A stretch of 64,000 nt of DNA from Dictyophora rubrovolvata (lineage: Eukaryota; Basidiomycota; Agaricomycetes; Phallales; Phallaceae): the NCBI GenBank assembly GCA_029959195.1, contig CP114124.1, positions 1,674,001 through 1,738,000 on the forward strand, given 5' to 3'. The notes beneath the pieces are model-generated. The model was given only the letters and a program-made list of their open reading frames with translations, was not told the DNA's origin and did no database searches. The position numbers and the translations under genes are program-made. This document shows, piece by piece, positions 11,401 to 25,800 of the stretch. Positions within the stretch are counted from its first letter, which is position 1. Each line of letters begins with the position of its first letter.

Positions 11401-13348
11401 GAATATCCCGGTTTTGCTGCGATTACCGCTGAAGTCTGCCAACGAAATACCGGTGTCCAAATCCGATTCGCATTCGCTGAACACGTTTGGTCCTGAATTG
11501 CAGTCAAAATCGTATATTCCACTGGAGCAATATGGACTGGACTGGAGAACAAGGACTTGCCTGACAATGCAGCGGTATACTGCATTTTTCCTTTCCCACG
11601 TTGGTATGTTACCAAACGCCTTTAGAATCCCTGTTCTTTTTCAAAAATTGTTTAGCTCTCCTTCTTCTGCATCGTCCTTATTTCGTGCACGCCTTGAACA
11701 CTTCCGATCAACCGCTTATAACCAAGTTTGCTGCTAGTGTGCTGGCGGTATATCGGTCTTCATGTTCACTTATTGCTCGCGCAGTGGAGTTGTATGCTCT
11801 TGAGCCACGACTGTCACCTCGAATATGGTCTTTTTGGTAGACATATTAAGCGGTTTAACTAAAGTGACCGTTTGCTGATTTTTTTTCGTAGGGCACAAGT
11901 CTTTTCAGCCGTCGTATGTCCCTTTTATTATTAACTTCGTGGCGTTGAAATCCTTTCCATCTTTTGTTCTTTTAGACATGCCTCGGTGGTCTTGTCGTCC
12001 GTTCTCCAAATCTTAGTATTGCGTCGTCCGCATTGGCTAATATAGAAATGGCTTGCGATTTATTCGAGCAAATCAAAGACTCAAATAGAACTGTCAGGGC
12101 TCTTGTACGTGGCCTTCTTGTCGTCATCACTATAGAGGCTTCTCCAATATCACACATTATTAGCCAACGATGCTAAAACTTCGAGGCAGAGCCCGATTGG
12201 TTTATAACGCTTATCAAGCTCAATTAGCACGTCGGTCTAAAAATCGGGACGCGAGGGGAACAGATGCTAGACAATCACGATCTCTGAATGAAGGACATCG
12301 CATTGGGGAACGGTTCGGAGATTCCGGTCCCGTCGAAATCCCCATTCCTGTGTTAAAAGAAGAAGAAGAGGATGAGATTTCCGCATTAGTTGGAGAGACG
12401 AGGCTTGTTGATCAAAGGGCTGGAAAGTCTCATATGTATTCTAGCTCACGCTCGAGCACCCATGTACAGTCCCAACCCTCTCTCTCACAAAGGTCTTCAC
12501 CTCCCAGGATGTCACTTGCTGCTTCAACATCCGCATCTTCGACTTCTCTTGCCGTGTCCGGACCTGCTTTCTATCCCTACCTTGACCTTGCTTCGAATGG
12601 AACTTTCGAGTCCACGTCCGATTCTTGGTTTCAGCCCAATCGTGAATTTGGGACACGGGCGACGCCTGAGATCACTGAAGATTCAAAATTGGGAACTCAT
12701 GATCAAACGATGTCGTCCTCTTCTCAACATACATTGCATGACTCGCAGCCCTTTGACCCGTTTTCTTTATTCCGGGAATTAGGACTAAATATCGCCACCC
12801 CGGGTGCTAGTGGGGAGGCTGTGGCTGATATAAGTCCTTACACGGATTTATCACAACTCCACCCTGAACTTGATCCTAATCCTGTTCAATTTCAGTTGTC
12901 AAATGAGAACTGGATTGAAAATCTTATCAATTCTGGACAAGGCCAACAATTACCCTCCTTAAATGCCGATATGAACATTAACATCGACCAATCCCAGGAT
13001 ACGGACGCCGCGCTCGAAAATTTTATTGCTCATGTGATGAGAGGATACACGTCCGGGACCGGGTTTGTTGACATCAATTCTAATAAAACAGCGGATGGAC
13101 AGGCTGACAGTACAAACATGGGATTTACGTCCGACCAAGTTTTAGATCAAAATTCTAAAGCCGGCTGGTCCTCCGACCTGGTTGGAACCAACGACGGTCC
13201 ATCGAATTGTCTCACGTCCAGGCTCGGGTTCCTTGATACCTTCCAGTCCGATCCACGATTCAATGCAGACATGGCTTGGACGTCGACCAATGTCGCCGGC
13301 TGGCAGTTTCTTGATACCACGAGCGCTTCCTCGCAAGATAATCGATAA
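8488..13348 (+). CDS. Zn(II)2Cys6 fungal-specific transcription factor
   Basis: A sequence-specific nuclear regulator; targets cannot be told from sequence. The N-terminal binuclear zinc cluster is spread over the first exons: CAECKRLKIKC, then FPCLTCIKR, then GCEAICPQG. It is followed by a short coiled-coil (KRRVHELENAL, about 9170) and by the fungal-specific transcription factor domain: YYAHSSWLYDPI (10.25 kb), LATFFVVLAIGTHLDLD, LLMSYYLHMSDARTGYGASW, RQELFWELYTYDSWL and ALLLLHRPYFVHAL (11.66 kb). The last exon (to 13348) is Ser/Asn/Asp-rich and probably the activation region. Two oddities: the spacer between Cys3 and Cys4 is about 27 residues instead of the usual 5-16, and two joins (near 8826/8884 and 10865/10909) keep frame only with an off-consensus splice or a very short 22-nt intron. 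It may be diverged, mis-sequenced or decaying. The family call is firm, the exon model is not. Confidence 0.8.
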
Positions 13349-13989: not shown

Positions 13990-16900
13990 ATGTCTTCGGG
14001 ATCCCGCCCATCCCAGACTCCCACAGACGACGGCTTCTCCCAGCTCTACGACGACGTTCTGAAAAGTTTTGTCGAAGACGATGTGACCATATCGTCTAAT
14101 ATGCACGAGGCTGGTCTGTCTCCATCGTCAAACGGGCAAGTTGAAGAGTCTCCCCAAGAATACTACGACGGTGACGATATGCGACATCCCTATTCCTCAG
14201 CACATAGTCCAAGACTCCAATCAGGTATGTTTTTTTGTTCGCTTTTCACCTGGCTTTTCTATACTTTTCCTATTCATTCAAAGCAGACGACTTTCCTCCT
14301 CGATCACCACCGTTACCTCAGATCCGTCAGCAGCCTGCTCCCCAATCACCGCGTCAACAGCAACGCCGGCCGCTTCCCAAACCACCTGTCAGCGATCCCT
14401 CGTCAGCGACATCGTCTTACTTTCCAATGGATAGAAAGCAGCCTCTAGTTACCTCTCCAGTGTCTGATAGTTATTCCTACGGAGATTTAAATGCTACCAG
14501 CCCTCACGTAACTCGTGCGACTTCGCTATCTCCTCCTCATCTTCATTCTCCACATTTGTTGACACGGCATGGTACCTATGCTGTCGGGGCCGATCCCAAA
14601 CATACCAATTCCGCTCCTCATTTCTCTCGCCCTCCAGGAGCAGCCATTCCTACCCCACCCGGTACCGGGTACTTTTCGAATGGCAACGGTCTGCACAGCT
14701 ATTCCGACGGCCTGCTGAATACTTCCAGAACCTCTCTCAATGCTCCACATGTAGACCGACACACAAGTTTTGGAAGCGCGTCAGTTTCCAGTGGACAGTA
14801 CTCTATTGATAGCCCTACTCCTCACTCAATCCATCGCGTCCAACGTGCAATAACTGATTCCGGCAGCGTTTATGAGAGGGACAGTTTTTATGGTCCCGCG
14901 TACAATGACTATTCAAGCTTCAACGATAATGATAACACCACTATTGGCCCCAGAACGACAATCACTCCTCCCACAAGCGTTTCTCGCGGGAATTCAGTTG
15001 TCATGTCTAACAATTCCCATTCGCCTGTAATGGAGTCTCCAACAGCTCCAGTAAAGTCGCCTCCCATTTCTCCTCAGGCCACACCGATTGCTCCTCGTCA
15101 ACAACATGATAGCATACGACACGCTGAGTCGTCTCGTATGGCTCGTCATCAGGAAGAGTTGCAGCGCACCATTGCAAGCATTAAAGGTGCTATGCCAGTA
15201 CCAGAGGATGACGAAGTTTTTGATGATGAAAGCATTGACGAAGACCCCGATCGTTTCGTTATGCTATCTCTTCTGAGTCATTTAGCCGTCAGACTTCGTG
15301 ATAAGGTACCAAGGGGCACACATGTTAAAGGCGGTATTCCGTACCATCGTGCTTTTACCGGAAAAGATATTGTTGTGGGTTGCCTGTTCTTTTTCGAAGT
15401 GGAAGCACGTCTTGATGTGCTTTTTTGTTTGCTTCTAGTCGACAATACAGTCTCAAATTCAAAGGGAATTGCTCATTAATATGGGCATCTCAACAAATGA
15501 TCGCCGAATTGCATTAGGCGTGGCTCGAAGCTTGCAGAGCCAGTTATTTTTCTATGAAGTAGAGTGGGGTGGTCGACAACTTACCGATAGCGTCGAGGAC
15601 GTGTACATGTTTCTCGATGATCAGGAAGGCGTGTCAAACGAGGCTCAACCTCAGGAAGAACTTCCAACAGCTGTCATTACAATTCTGACGAAGTGCTATT
15701 CCCTTAGTTGTTCAGAAGGTCTTCCATGTTACTCTCCCCGCTGTCCAAGAAGAGCGGCTGTGTGTATCTTCTTTTTTTCAGTGTCCTCTCTTAATAACTT
15801 TAACTCTGATAGAGCCTTCCAAAATCTTTGGAGCTACCTGTAGAAGCCCCAGACAGACCTGTAAGTTGCATTCCAACCCTCGCTTCGTTGTTATGTCAAT
15901 AAACACGTGGTTTCAGGGTGTTGATCGATGGTCTGAATCTGTTGACCCTCAAATTCTGGGAACCTTACCTGACACTGAAGTCCAGAGACAAACGTATGTC
16001 CGTGTTTACAAGAGAAAAGAAATATTGTCTGAAGCATTCCGATTCCAGAGTCATTCGTAAAGTCGTCGAAAAAGAAGAGCAGTATGTTCAGGATTTAGAT
16101 ACAATTGAATCGGTGCGGTTTTGTCTCGCTGTCTCTGGTCTACCGTCGCTTATTGGTTTTAGCTCTTCATAAAACCACTCCGTTTAAATGATCCCCAAAT
16201 AATTCCTCCGGGAGAATTGGATAATTTCATTGACACTGTATTTGGAAACGTTCTGGATCTGCGAGAATGTAATCGTCGCTTGTTGGAAACGATGTATGTG
16301 AGACAAAGAGAGCAGGCACCCATCATTCAAAGAATCGGGGATATTTTTCTTACCGCTGCTGCTGAATTCCGTTTGCCTTATCCGGACTACATTGGTCATT
16401 TACCAATAGCAGAAAAGCGAATGAAAGACGAGCTGGAAAATAATCAAGAATTTCGGAGGTTTCATGAGGTATGTTTGGTCTACTAGACAATGCATGCACA
16501 GGGAACTTTTGAACTTTCGTTTCTAAATACAATTTCATTTCTAGACATGCTTACGCCATCCTAATACCCGTCGTTTTGATCTTCGACACCTCATTACCCG
16601 ACCGTCAGAACATCTTCAACGATATCCCATCCTATTGGAAGCCATATTCAAAGATACGGCTGAGGGCAATCCGGACGCTGACTTTTTGCAAGAGGCGATC
16701 CACTCTATTCGTAAACTATCTGAAGTGGCTCATCTCCGGACGTTTCAAACTGCTATGTTGCGAGGTCCTACTTCCAAATTAGAATGGCATGATCTGGTGT
16801 CTTCCGAGATTCGAGAAACTATGACAAAACAAGAAGTAACTCGGCAGTCGTGGGTTTCCTTTCCCTTTTCATGTGGGCGTTTATCTTACACGTAGGATAG

Positions 16901-19900
16901 ACAAATATTTGAACTGATCAAGGGTGAAATGGAGTATGTCAAAGATTTAGACAACCTCGACACGGTTTGTGTTATTCTATTACGCAAGCGGTCTGTTGTC
17001 TGATATGACTTAAAAACTTAGATCTTTATTCAACCGTTAAGAAAATCAGCTGAAACAATCCAGCCTGTCATCCCGCGTGATAGGCTACCGCAGTTTATTG
17101 AAGATGTGTTTTATAATTTCGCCGAAATACTTAAACATCACAAGCGAATGCTTGAGAAATTGCATGAGATTCAGCTCGAAGAGCATCCGATGATACATAG
17201 TATTACGGCGACGATATTTGATGCTGCTCTTAATTGGCGCGACGCTTACATGGACTTCATTCCTCATTATCCTATTGCTGCCTATCGTATAGATGAAGAG
17301 CTCGCCAATAATCCTGCTTTCAAGACGTTTGTAGAGGTAAGTAGTTTTGTGCTATCAATCGTATTGCTCAAGTTTTTAACGAGCCACCCAGCAATGTACA
17401 AGGCATTCGGAGTCTCGCAAGCTAGATATCAAGGCGTTCGTATATCGACCAATCCCCCGATTGTTAAGATATGATCTACTATTGAAGGGCATCATATCTG
17501 CCTCACCTGCTGATCATGAGGACAAAGAAGCGATAACGCAGGTTCTCGACGTTATCAAGGCTCTGGGAAGGGACTCGGAACCTGGTGTAGTTAGCTCGAA
17601 GCAAAAGGTCGAATTATGGAAATATAACGCCAATCTTGTCTTCAAACCTGGTGAAGCCGTGGTATGTATTTTCTGCCTTTATTTTGTCCTAGACTCCATT
17701 GAAATGCATTTGAAAGGACATGGATCTGCTCGATGAGTCTAGAGTCCTAATCCATGCGGGTAAACTTCTTCGTCAAGCTGATGCTGGGTTCGAATGGAAT
17801 GGGTGGAGCGAACTTTTCGTTCTACTGTTCGATAATTATAGTATGTTTGCTCTCTTTTTTTAAAAGTCATACCATTTTAAAGTATCTCTCAAGTGGTAAT
17901 GACCAAACCTAAGGATAAGGACGGCGTAATGAAATATCAAGTGAACCGTCACGTAAGCTTTTCTTTTTCTCTTCTTGACTGGACGTATATTGTTTATTTA
18001 TTTATTTTTTGAAAGCCAATACCCATTGATTTACTTAATCTTGTTAACTTTACGGATCCTCCGCAAACCCGCGGCACCGGATTGCTTCGAGGCTTACGAG
18101 GTGGTGAAAGAGGAGGACGAGGTGGTGGCGTTGGGACAATAGATGATAGCTCTAGTATCCTCGGCGCCGATATGGTGACAGATTCCCGGACGGTTTACCC
18201 ATGTACCATTCATCATAACGGACGAATCGGTGGTTTGTATACTCTATATGCCGAGTCTGCTCAAAGTCGAGCAGAGTGGAAAGCCAAGCTTGAAGAGGCA
18301 TCGGTGTTGCGAAAGACTGTGACGGAGAATAATAAGGTAAACCGGTAATCACTCTCCGAATTAATCTATTAATCACTAGTTTTTTAGGCCTTTGAGCTCG
18401 AGACTTTGAGCGCCGATACGTTCCTTGTTCCTTCACTCCAAAATCAGTCGAATGCAGCTTGGAATCAAGAACAAGTTCTAACTGGGAAGGTCACCTGCTC
18501 TGTTCCATTCTGTAGGTTCACAGTGGTTATTGGTATCGGTTTTGCTAACAACCAAGAATAGCTACCGCCGATGGTATGCGACTGGTGGCTGTCGGTTGTG
18601 CGGAGGGTGTATGGATCGGTTTGCGGCACGATTCTAAATGTGCGTATAAGGATCCTTAATAAGTTACTATGCGACTGCTTAACGCCAATTTAGCCATGCG
18701 ACGTGTTCTGCATTTGAAAGCTGTAACCCAATGTGCCATGTTGGAAGACTTTGGTATATTTCTGGTGTTGGCAGACAAGGTATGAACTATGTATACTCCT
18801 GCTGTCGTCAGCGGTCAACCCTGGTTCAGAGTCTCTGGGCATATCATATCGAGGCACTTGTTCCGTCTGGCCCTCCACGACATAATTTGAACAGGACGCC
18901 ACAGAAGCTGAACAATCACAAAGATGTTCAATTCTTTTCAGTGGGGACGATGAATAGCCGGACACTGCTAATTTATATGAAAAAGAAAGGGGTGCGTCGA
19001 ACTGAACAATTTCCCCAAAGGCATTTTGTTTACTTTGTGATTAGACCGAAAGCATATTTCATGTTCTGGAACCTGTCGGCGGAAAGATTGCTGACAAGCC
19101 TAAGGCACCTGCGGCGTTTGGTCGGAATTTGTTTGGTTCACAGCGATCCGACTGGTTCCGACATTATCGTGTATGTACACACATCATTGACTCTGGTCTA
19201 GTCATGGTGAATAACGAGTTTTTTCACAGGAATTCTTTTTACCAACCGAAGCCTCCGATGTCATTTTCCTAAAAAACCGAATAGCCGTTCTTTGTACCAG
19301 AGGTTTTGAAATAATGGAACTCAGCGAGTTCGTTCCTGTCCCCTTTCAGATGAGATTACGTCCTGATACTGATGTTGCTCTGTTCAGCTATACCAGTGTC
19401 AGCATTCCGCAACGGGAAGAGCCTCGTTTGGCAGCCTTAGCGAAACGTTGCGAATCCAGCCGCCCACTAGGAATGTGTCGCACAGGTGACAATGAATTCC
19501 TTCTTTGCTATGACGGTGGGGCATTTTCCATTGTGTTGCTAGAATATCTCTTAACGTTTACATTAGAATTTGGCGTATACGTTGACCGGTTCGGAGATCC
19601 ATGTCGTTCGAGTATCATGATCGAATGGGAAGGAACTGCTGAACGCGTTGCTTTCCATCCACCGCATGTTTGTTTGTTCGATCCCCGCTTCATTGAGATT
19701 CGCAGTATTGATACTGGAAGACTGGTCCAAATTATCCACGGAACGGAAATCCGATGTATCTGGGATGGTCGTGGAACGAATGTACCTCAATTGGGCACCG
19801 CGCCTGCAACCAATGAATGGCAAAATGGGTCAAGTCAAGAGCCCCGAATCCATGCTGTAATGAGAGCTCCCGAAGTGCCACGTGCACCGGGTGCGAGAGC

Positions 19901-20063
19901 ACCTGCCGTACTCATTCAAGAAGTTGTAGAACTAGTCCCAACTATCCCGCTTTATTTACCTGGATCCTTATCCTCCCCGCCGCCCTCGACAACGACATTT
20001 TTCGGGCATCATTCTTCCTCTCCGCCTAATTCTCCTCGTCCTTCAACGACACGGTGGCGATAG
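13990..20063 (+). CDS. Rho1 guanine-nucleotide exchange factor, DEP-DH-DH-PH-CNH (Rom2-like)
   Basis: Exchanges GDP for GTP on Rho1-type GTPases at the plasma membrane, driving the cell-wall integrity pathway. The order is: a Ser/Pro-rich disordered N-terminus (to about residue 420); a DEP domain (RFVMLSLLSHLAVRLRDKV ... LFFYEVEWGGR, about 425-540); a first DH domain (EKEEQYVQDLD to LQRYPILLEAI, about 590-800); a second DH domain (GEMEYVKDLDNLD to LLRYDLLLKGI, about 820-1010); a PH domain (FEWNGWSELFVLLFDNY to AEWKAKLEEA); and a C-terminal CNH domain (GMRLVAVGCAEGVWIGL to RCIWDG). The usual Rom2/Rgf layout has one DH; the second one here, joined to the PH, is the canonical copy by likeness. 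Exons include 13990-14224, 14287-15374, 15439-15759, 16049-16112, 16163-16468, 16545-16849, 16901-16964 and 17023-17336. A 51-nt stop-free intron lies near 19516-19566. The start ATG gives a clean first exon. Confidence 0.88.
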
Positions 20064-22801: not shown

Positions 22802-25800
22802 CTATCGCTCGATAATTTTGAAACTATCAGCGACTTCGAGTGAATCCAATCCGAGTTCTGATTTTGGCGTTAAGGGTTGCCTTCGAAGAATGTCGGCAGA
22901 ATTCAATGCCGTTCTCAGATTACGTTCGTGAACTGGTTTCGTGAGCACCCTGCTCAGAGGAAAGCCAAAGTCAAGTCAGTCACCACTCAAGGGTATATCT
23001 AAATCAGGTCGTACCTATTAACGCCAGCTTCTAGATATTCTTCTTGATCTGAAAGAAGGGCATTTCCAGTGACACCTAAATTTCAGTTGAGTTTAGATAC
23101 TGATATAACAAAGAGACTCTTTACACACCAACTACGAAATCCGTTCGTCCGAGACTTCGAAGTTTTTGTATGACTTCGAGTCCAGTCATTACGGGCTGGA
23201 AAAAAAAAAAACCCTCAGAAGAATTGCTGAACAATAAATGGTCTCTTACCATTTGATTATCGAGGAAAATTATGTCGAATCTGTTATCTGCATGGGCAAG
23301 CGGTTCAGGAGAACTGCTACCGCGTATTGATGGCTGCTTATCCGACCTCGATGGCGGATTCGCACCCAAGATTAGATCTAATGCGACAGCCCCATTTTCA
23401 GCACATGTGACTGCAACTCCTAAGCGAGCAAGTAGACGGGCCATCAGCTGTCTGGTTATAGCGTCATCATCCACCACAAGTCCGTGTAAAGGTGTGTCCA
23501 GATGCAATGAGGGATGCGGAGACGATGACGTGGTATTTGGTCGGGCTGAATATGGAGGAGAAGGCGGTTTCACCGGCGTCGGAAGGGCGTTTGGTGCATG
23601 TATCGTTTCACGCTCTGGTAAGGCAATGAATGTCGGACGATTTGTACTCGATTTGGCCGTTGACATGAGATCCAGCTCGACTGCCGTGGTCTCTGAGGAG
23701 CTGGGCGTTTCTGTGTCTGCTCTTGTCAACGGTAGTCGGTGTCCTGTAGACCTCAAGGACCTTCTCGGCATAAGTTCAACGAGTCCGCCTAGGAGAGCAC
23801 AACATATTCTTATCAACCTGATTATCTGCGGTACAGGCTAGACTCTCACCTTGATCCATGATAGATTTCAAGGCTGATGTCCGACTCGTCATAGGGAGAG
23901 CACCTTTAAACCGTCTCGCGGCGTGATTCATTGTGGACGTATCGAACATTACGTTTTTTTGGAGATCTGAATAAAGATGCGATTCTGCCATGATATCGGA
24001 GCCGGCTGCGCTCCCATGCTTGCTTAGAGCTTTTTTGCCGACTCCTAATCGCAGTTCAACCCAAAAGGTACTTCCAACTCCAAGTTGGCTACGAACACTG
24101 CAAAACGCAATGGGTTAAAAACACACCACACTGTCATTAATTTGATAATAATACCCGAGACGACCACCAGACAGCTGAACGATATGACGAACTAGAGCTA
24201 AACCAAGACCCGTTCCCTTACCACCTAAAATCCCGGGCAGGCTTCAGTAAGAAATAAACCAAGTCCGTACGTGACGAAAGAATTACCTTGTCTTCGACCA
24301 ATCTAGTCAATGTTCAGCTAAATGACAAAAAGGAAAGAAGGGGAAAAAAATGAAATATGTACCTCCGTTTGAACATAGGGACTGAACAGCTTCTTATCTA
24401 CTAAATCTCGAGCTCTTGGAATGTAAAATCAATTGAAATTACCTGGATACATACCATGGAACTACTTACCGGATGCCAACCCCCGTATCCTCAATTTCGA
24501 TTCGAACGACGATAGTATCCGAATGCGGGGAATGAAGTGCATCGTGCTGGCTAAGTCGGAAGGCCGAAAGACTGGGATTTAAGGACTTCACCGAAGGTTC
24601 TAGGTCTTCCGCCGACTTTAGTACAGGATATAACAATTTAGTCCGTACAGTGATTTTACCGCCTGTTGACGTGAATTTACAGGCATTGCTACATATAATC
24701 AGCGAATTAGAAATGTGGTTCCCGAGAAAATAAAACGGGTCTGAACCTTGTTAGATTTGTGATAATCTGCCGAAGACGCATTTCATCTCCAACAACGATC
24801 CCTTCTTCGTTCGGGTGTTCACGGAGCTTTTGTTCGATCCTTTCAGGTAGTTCGTCCAGAGCACGATACCAAGCTCTTCGAGCTGTCTAGGTCCCCAATT
24901 GGCAATTGCACGAGATACAACAGATATGACTGACCTCGTCTAAGCGTTTGTCCATATCAGTGCACAACTCCAGACCGCGGACATCGGCGGCTAGTTGCAA
25001 TGGAACGAGCATTGAACGGAGAGCTGTATGAAAGGTATATGGGCGGTTGACAGATTCAAATCGGCCAGAATCCATGCGGTTGAAATCCAGGACGTCATTG
25101 AGGACTAGTGTATATTATTGAAATGAGAAATTCAGCGTAAATTGAAGATGCGCATACATACCCTTGGACATCATACTCAAACTACCTTCCAATGCGGCAA
25201 ACTCAATATCTTGTCCTTTTGGAACTGAGTCGTTGGCTTCCATGTTTTGGACAGCTAGCACTGAATAATGAAGATTGTCAGAGCGACGCTACTGCCTTGT
25301 TCATTATAATGTACTGACGGGCAGTGTTTAAGGGTACTCGAACCTATAGTCCATCAGAAAAACCATTAGGACCCCATTTTCCTTTCACAGATAAACGCTT
25401 ACCTCATGGAAGATGTATGACGTCAATCGGCGTTTGCTGTCAGCTTCAGGAAATACAAATGAGGGACAATCACAGCTGAACCTCATATATAGAAACATAC
25501 CAGCCTGACGTTCATTGATTTGTGCCTTTTGAGTCGCCCGAAACTATTTTAATTAAGGGGTCAGGGGGGAAGACATACATATATAAGGTATATACGAACT
25601 TGAATTTTGAGTTGTTCGCGTAAGGAATATAATCGTCGATCGGCCTATAAATAATACAATTAGGGTAACATGGTGCGCATATTACCAAAGCAGTAGAACC
25701 CACATTTTCCCGTAAATAATGCAACCATAAAAGAAACACCTTGATAGGGTATGGGTTTGAGATATGAATGGATGGCACGAAAAACTCTGATACCTGAAAT

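Follow-up and report, generated by a model that had tools for sequence, protein, structure and literature searches.

Tandem DH domains in a predicted Rom2-type Rho guanine nucleotide exchange factor of Dictyophora rubrovolvata, the first a candidate pseudo-DH

Introduction

What could a second DH domain be doing in a fungal Rho guanine nucleotide exchange factor (GEF) of the Rom2 type? The Rom2/Rgf Rho1 GEFs govern fungal cell wall synthesis and polarity. Rom2, Rgf1, and Rgf2 consist of DEP, DH, PH, and CNH domains, the role of the CNH domain being called unknown (PMC9697909; except for PMC4232260, the papers cited here are represented by excerpts). The window analyzed here is a stretch of 64,000 nucleotides from D. 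rubrovolvata (contig CP114124.1, positions 1,674,001 to 1,738,000), whose genome assembly comprises 28.2 Mb in 11 contigs. It carries a predicted gene of this type in which two homologous DH domains, DH1 and DH2, stand in one chain; the residue changes in DH1 suggest that it is probably a non-catalytic, retained domain beside a catalytic DH2.

Domain organization of the predicted gene

The gene model, a hand-made prediction from the sequence, occupies positions 13990-20063 of the plus strand and comprises 21 exons encoding 1651 amino acids, with a single terminal stop and no internal stop; all 20 introns are GT..AG introns of 50-76 nucleotides (nt). Pfam placed a DEP-like region, DH1, DH2, PH, and CNH in this order behind a long N-terminus, so that the Rom2-type layout with two DH domains put forward in a preliminary description of the locus was supported. 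Each DH domain taken alone matched the Pfam RhoGEF profile far over the cut-off of 27.6 bits, DH1 with 123.2 bits at profile positions 1-176 of 180 and DH2 with 118.2 bits at positions 2-175. NCBIfam gave no match for DH1. Because nearly the whole RhoGEF profile was matched, the fold of DH1 is probably kept. In BLASTP, DH1 and DH2 were identical at 71 of 207 residues (34%; E 5e-42 for the single comparison), which agreed with the old duplication proposed earlier. In DH1 the Pfam match extends to residue 772, and residue 794 is the first of the N-terminal flank of DH2; the gap of about 21 residues is too short for a PH domain, and the claim of two complete DH domains with no PH between them was thereby upheld.

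The exons of the two domains run in parallel. DH1 consists of a 64-nt opening exon containing conserved region 1 (CR1; 16049-16112), a second exon of 306 nt (16163-16468), and the DH part of a third exon (16545-16784) containing conserved region 3 (CR3; RPSEHLQRYPILLE). DH2 likewise has a 64-nt opening exon with CR1 (16901-16964), a second exon of 315 nt (17022-17336), and a third exon (17392-17661) containing CR3 (RPIPRLLRYDLLL) and a linker ending in GEAV; the phase-0 intron after this linker was also present in the Rom2-like gene described below. The full model reproduced the 64-nt opening exons, the intron positions, the phases 2, 0, and 0, and the motifs quoted in the preliminary description, whose end at 17470 cut DH2 short, its exons reaching 17661.

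The PH domain (PH_5; 47 bits, cut-off 30; residues 1042-1186) is encoded by three exons (17717-18336), and the CNH domain (200.7 bits; residues 1247-1551) with the C-terminus by seven (18388-20063). The two RhoGEF stretches, PH_5, and CNH all exceeded their Pfam cut-offs, whereas the DEP-like region (residues 419-499, with an intron inside; 15306-15759 together with a following Cys motif, CYSLSCSEGLPCYSPRCPRR) scored 21 bits against a cut-off of 32.7. A two-locus tblastn search nevertheless matched it to the corresponding DEP stretch of the Rom2-like gene (E 7e-15). Thus, the gene has the Rom2/Rgf order DEP, DH, PH, CNH, with DEP weak by Pfam, but differs from Rom2, Rgf1, and Rgf2 in having two DH domains, not one. 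Two separate genes were rejected as an explanation, since DEP lies before DH1, PH and CNH lie behind DH2, and exons 8 and 9 are parted by an intron of only 51 nt. An assembly duplicate was rejected because of the low protein identity of DH1 and DH2.

Related genes in the same genome

The RhoGEF profile marked at least nine gene places in the genome (a hand count from 16 rows, one place being below the cut-off), and among these the profile was covered twice only at the window gene. At C3:2.18 Mb, two RhoGEF rows overlapped at profile positions 44-97, and the gene model there was unstable. CNH matches marked three DH-bearing genes: the window gene, the Rom2-like gene at C8:2.12 Mb (L029), and a gene at C2:1.22 Mb. 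The Rom2-like gene has the canonical layout of DEP, one DH, PH, and CNH, which matches that of Rgf1 and Rgf2; the C2:1.22 gene has one DH, PH, and CNH, which matches that of Rgf3 (PMC9697909), and neither a DEP domain nor a further DH was found at that locus. Over PH-CNH, the window gene was identical to the Rom2-like gene at 175 of 492 residues (35.6%) and to the C2:1.22 gene at 158 of 492 (32.1%). The DH domain of the C2:1.22 gene was closest to DH2 (38%); the two genes are alike in DH2 and its N-terminal flank and have one DH intron site in common (site 2, below), but differ in that the C2:1.22 gene has a single DH and no DEP that we found.

The C2:1.22 gene (L030, minus strand) is a strongly diverged paralogue with a 14-residue insert after CR3, and its DH model requires one GC..AG intron; this DEP-less paralogue may be fast-evolving or decaying. 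A fourth CNH place lies at C1:1.42 Mb. An intersectin-like DH was seen at C1:487750-488121 (L036, the DH at C1:0.49 Mb; E 2e-27 to PDB 1ki1); it has introns at both site 2 and site 3 of the DH.

GTPase-contacting residues of DH1 and DH2

The preliminary description had left three roles open for DH1, among them that of a pseudo-DH. Reference positions were taken from the contacts that AKAP-Lbc makes with RhoA (PMC4232260). All 15 of them matched the expected letters of AKAP13 in an alignment comparing DH1 with 11 other DHs, four rows of which lacked the last helix. Glu2005 of AKAP-Lbc, which binds Val38, Thr37, and Tyr34 of RhoA (PMC4232260), corresponded to Lys in DH1 (codon 16059-16061) and to Glu in all 11 other DHs. 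At the small contact residue one helical turn further, Thr2009, DH1 had a second Lys (codon 16071-16073), where the other 11 had Thr, Gly, or Ser; the alignment of CR1 between RQ and YV contained no gap. The Arg of the CR3 'QR', found in 11 of 11 other DHs, was His in DH1 (codon 16611-16613). DH2, by comparison, retained the CR1 Glu (codon 16911-16913), a Gly at the small-residue place, the Arg of the CR3 QR, the Leu-Leu, and the basic residue before Tyr. Residues that are key to GTPase contact, as they are lost in a pseudo-GEF DH, were thus missing from DH1 and not from DH2, and the three substitutions supported the pseudo-DH option.

A check free of reference positions gave a similar picture. 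Among columns filled in at least nine rows, we took for each DH those identical in all the other rows. DH1 changed two of four otherwise fixed columns, namely the CR1 Glu and the CR3 QR Arg, and DH2 changed none of two. The C2:1.22 DH changed one of three (Y to L), as did the C2:1.63 DH (R to Q), and seven other rows changed none. A CR1 glutamate and a CR3 lysine have been called important for catalysis, and the DH of Bcr was named a pseudo-GEF together with six others without key residues (PMC5727386). A simulation study showed Glu1047 of Tiam1 hydrogen-bonding to switch I of Rac1 (PMC7884829); by our own mapping this is the same residue as Glu2005 of AKAP-Lbc. In a separate comparison outside the 11 rows, Tiam1, ARHGEF4, and Dbs had Glu at this place. 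Glu was also present in ARHGEF11, which is in the first tree described below and absent from the contact table, and in a looser model of the C3:2.18 DH; the C1:1.21 model stopped short of the place. The C3:2.18 and C1:1.21 DHs were left out of the contact table and the trees, their models being partial or unstable. From these substitutions we infer that DH1 has lost exchange activity.

Several observations weigh against reading DH1 as the disarmed partner of an intact DH2. The CR1 Glu is not universal, as PIX (PDB 1by1), in the separate comparison, has Asn in its place. The question raised earlier, whether DH1 keeps its CR1 and CR3 contacts, had a divided answer: three were lost, but the CR3 Arg before Tyr, at the lysine place, and the hydrophobic residues after it were kept. 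The Rom2-like DH also changed two of four otherwise fixed columns, mildly (L to M and Y to F). DH2 is itself not fully typical, having Pro at the CR3 Gln and, in the last helix, Glu at a position occupied by Asp in AKAP13 and by Asn in the Rom2-like DH. Both Lys codons of DH1 are AAA, one base from GAA, in a single assembly. As to function, the autoinhibitory role considered below is drawn from the position of DH1 and from analogy.

Intron sites, flanks, and phylogeny of the DH domains

The matching introns had been taken as a sign of an exon-block duplication. Site 1 (phase 2) was present in DH1 and DH2, and in the C1:0.49 Mb DH an intron of phase 0 lies 1 nt downstream of it. Site 2, a phase-0 site preceding the F..PL motif, was common to DH1, DH2, and the DHs at C2:1.22, C4:1.24, and C1:0.49 Mb but absent from the Rom2-like DH, whereas site 3 (phase 0) was common to DH1, DH2, the Rom2-like DH, and the C1:0.49 DH but absent from those at C2:1.22 and C4:1.24 Mb. 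This distribution suggests that sites 2 and 3 are old DH intron sites; shared old sites are therefore no proof that either DH arose as a copy of its neighbor, and, as they recur in other DH genes of the genome, the introns lost their force as an argument for a duplication specific to this pair. All three sites together occurred only in DH1 and DH2 among the modelled DHs.

The duplication itself stood, but not as a clean intron-to-intron block, its breaks apparently lying inside exons 5 and 8. The BLASTP similarity of DH1 and DH2 began within exon 5, at a W that precedes the phase-2 intron. A flank of 21 residues from this W to RQ precedes DH1 at the end of exon 5 (W...TEVQRQ; 15929-15993, up to the phase-2 intron) and DH2 at the end of exon 8 (W...KQEVTRQ; 16785-16849), and it also precedes the Rom2-like and C2:1.22 DHs. 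The flanks were cut by hand after inspection, and significance was estimated as the number of 100000 shuffles scoring as high. The DH1 and DH2 flanks were identical at 8 of 21 residues (1 shuffle). The DH1 flank shared 7 residues with the Rom2-like flank and 9 with that of C2:1.22 (0 shuffles each), and the DH2 flank shared 6 (54 shuffles) and 11 (0 shuffles) with them, respectively. It would thus appear that in exon 8 the DH1 end is fused with a duplicate of the tail of exon 5; the putative seam lies within the exon just before 16785.

Two DH trees were calculated, the second omitting three long rows. DH1, DH2, and the C2:1.22 DH formed a group (support 98/98 and 97/98), inside which DH2 paired with the C2:1.22 DH (95/92 and 96/94) and DH1 stood outside. 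In approximately unbiased (AU) tests, DH1 and DH2 as sisters were not rejected (p-AU 0.071 and 0.057 in the two trees); p-AU was 0.068 for DH1 with the C2:1.22 DH, 0.019 for the Rom2-like DH with DH2, and 0.034 for the Rom2-like DH with DH1. The trees thus lean, at p near 0.06, away from DH1 and DH2 as sisters. They also lean toward a duplication that would predate the split of DH2 and the C2:1.22 DH, the C2:1.22 gene then deriving from the DH2-PH-CNH half; this lean comes from three key rows.

Proposed role of DH1

We propose that the gene product is a Rho GEF of the Rom2/Rgf type carrying an additional DH on the N-terminal side; its catalytic unit would be DH2 with the following PH domain, acting most likely on Rho1. 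DH1 would keep the DH fold without its chemistry, owing to the Lys, Lys, and His substitutions. Its place between DEP and DH2-PH is one at which autoinhibitory elements are often found in other Dbl proteins, and DH1 would most likely be a regulatory module, packing on DH2-PH and holding it off until a signal brings release. According to a review, Rho1 GEFs are kept autoinhibited by N- and C-terminal domains (PMC9697909), and Vav1, Asef, and intersectin are restrained by elements on the N-terminal side of the DH (PMC2892021). Among ways in which DH1 could regulate DH2, we would rank autoinhibition of DH2-PH first, as a tentative proposal with somewhat less than an even chance, and a scaffold or dimer second.

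As such a scaffold, DH1 would be a non-catalytic module for GTPase binding or dimerization, for example retaining Rho close to DH2 or linking a pair of GEF chains. Binding of Rho GTPases by the DH-PH of Bcr is very weak and leads to no exchange (PMC5727386), and recruitment or scaffolding was proposed by the authors for obscurin as a suggested pseudo-GEF (PMC10118190); however, two of the changed residues of DH1 lie at switch-I contacts and should impair binding through the usual face, and we regard this role as rather unlikely. That both domains are active, with DH1 as a second catalytic site whose altered CR1 serves a different GTPase, would fit its nearly full-length, high-scoring profile match, its retained CR3 Arg-Tyr and hydrophobic contacts, and the replacement of the CR1 Glu in PIX. 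Yet a charge reversal at the switch-I Glu together with a second Lys in the same patch of contacts and the loss of the QR Arg occurred in none of the 11 other aligned DHs, and no PH follows DH1, which leaves a second active site distinctly improbable.

Alternative splicing might instead decide whether the protein carries both DHs or one. Exons 6-8 form a cassette of 675 nt bounded on each side by a phase-2 intron, and skipping exons 6-8, 7-9, or 8-10 would preserve the frame and yield a protein with a single DH, whole or hybrid. The frame is also kept on skipping exon 7 alone but lost on skipping exons 9-11, exon 6 alone, or exon 8 alone. A single-DH isoform by frame-preserving skipping is thus possible, but the shared intron sites by themselves account for the matching frame, without any choice in splicing, and alternative cassettes as the explanation of the tandem seem very unlikely. 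Least probable, with hardly any weight in our view, is that DH1 is a decaying remnant without function. Its terminal branch (1.10 and 1.19 in the two trees) exceeds that of DH2 (0.77 and 0.73), but it is free of stops, frameshifts, and broken splice sites, its Pfam score is slightly above that of DH2, and at 34% identity an unconstrained copy should have lost its frame long ago. A retained, non-catalytic DH1 beside a catalytic DH2 is still the reading that we consider probable. A fuller scenario, of a fungal family of Rho1 GEFs in which a duplicated DH has turned into a dedicated pseudo-DH that shuts down the active DH of its own chain, while splicing of the phase-matched cassette provides a constitutively open single-DH form, is a long shot. 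If DH1 does act on DH2, the protein would carry a natural regulator in its own chain, in the form of a disarmed DH joined to a working one.

Comparison with known systems

Trio and kalirin carry two DH domains per chain, each with its own PH domain. The window gene is like them in having two DHs in one chain but differs in that DH1 has no PH and lies just 21 residues from the N-terminal flank of DH2. Bcr and obscurin deviate at GTPase-contact or catalytic residues, and measurements showed no exchange by them (PMC5727386, PMC10118190); the residues of DH1 deviate likewise; FARP1/2 have been named possible pseudo-GEFs (PMC6041286). The named pseudo-GEFs in the excerpts of these three papers are animal proteins. 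Whereas the DHs of Bcr, FARP1/2, and obscurin have a PH behind them, DH1 has none and stands in tandem with an active-looking DH. The N-terminal restraint would resemble that of Vav1, Asef, and intersectin (PMC2892021), but the proposed restrainer is here itself a DH.

Two-DH proteins and pseudo-GEFs are each already known. Among the matches listed in the open-access literature, there was neither a fungal GEF with two DHs nor a disarmed, PH-less DH in tandem with an intact DH in a Rom2-type GEF. A table row of a fungal domain survey places PH C-terminal to RhoGEF domains (PMC4102429), and an excerpt on Wolfiporia cocos reported an expansion of RhoGEFs, with no tandem layout found in it. GxcDD was considered as a tandem-DH precedent and rejected, as it has one DH only according to the excerpt. 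No relatives of the DH alignment or of a DH2-PH fragment were found among viral contigs, a collection of viruses, and none of DH1 among prokaryotic genome contigs; the spread among fungi lies outside the reach of that search.

Neighboring open reading frames

Just upstream of the GEF gene, positions 12164-13348 (plus strand) form an open stretch of 394 amino acids with no Pfam match at E 0.01. On the minus strand, an open frame at 23124-23837 gave a partial match to the response-regulator receiver domain (25.4 bits, cut-off 30.2).

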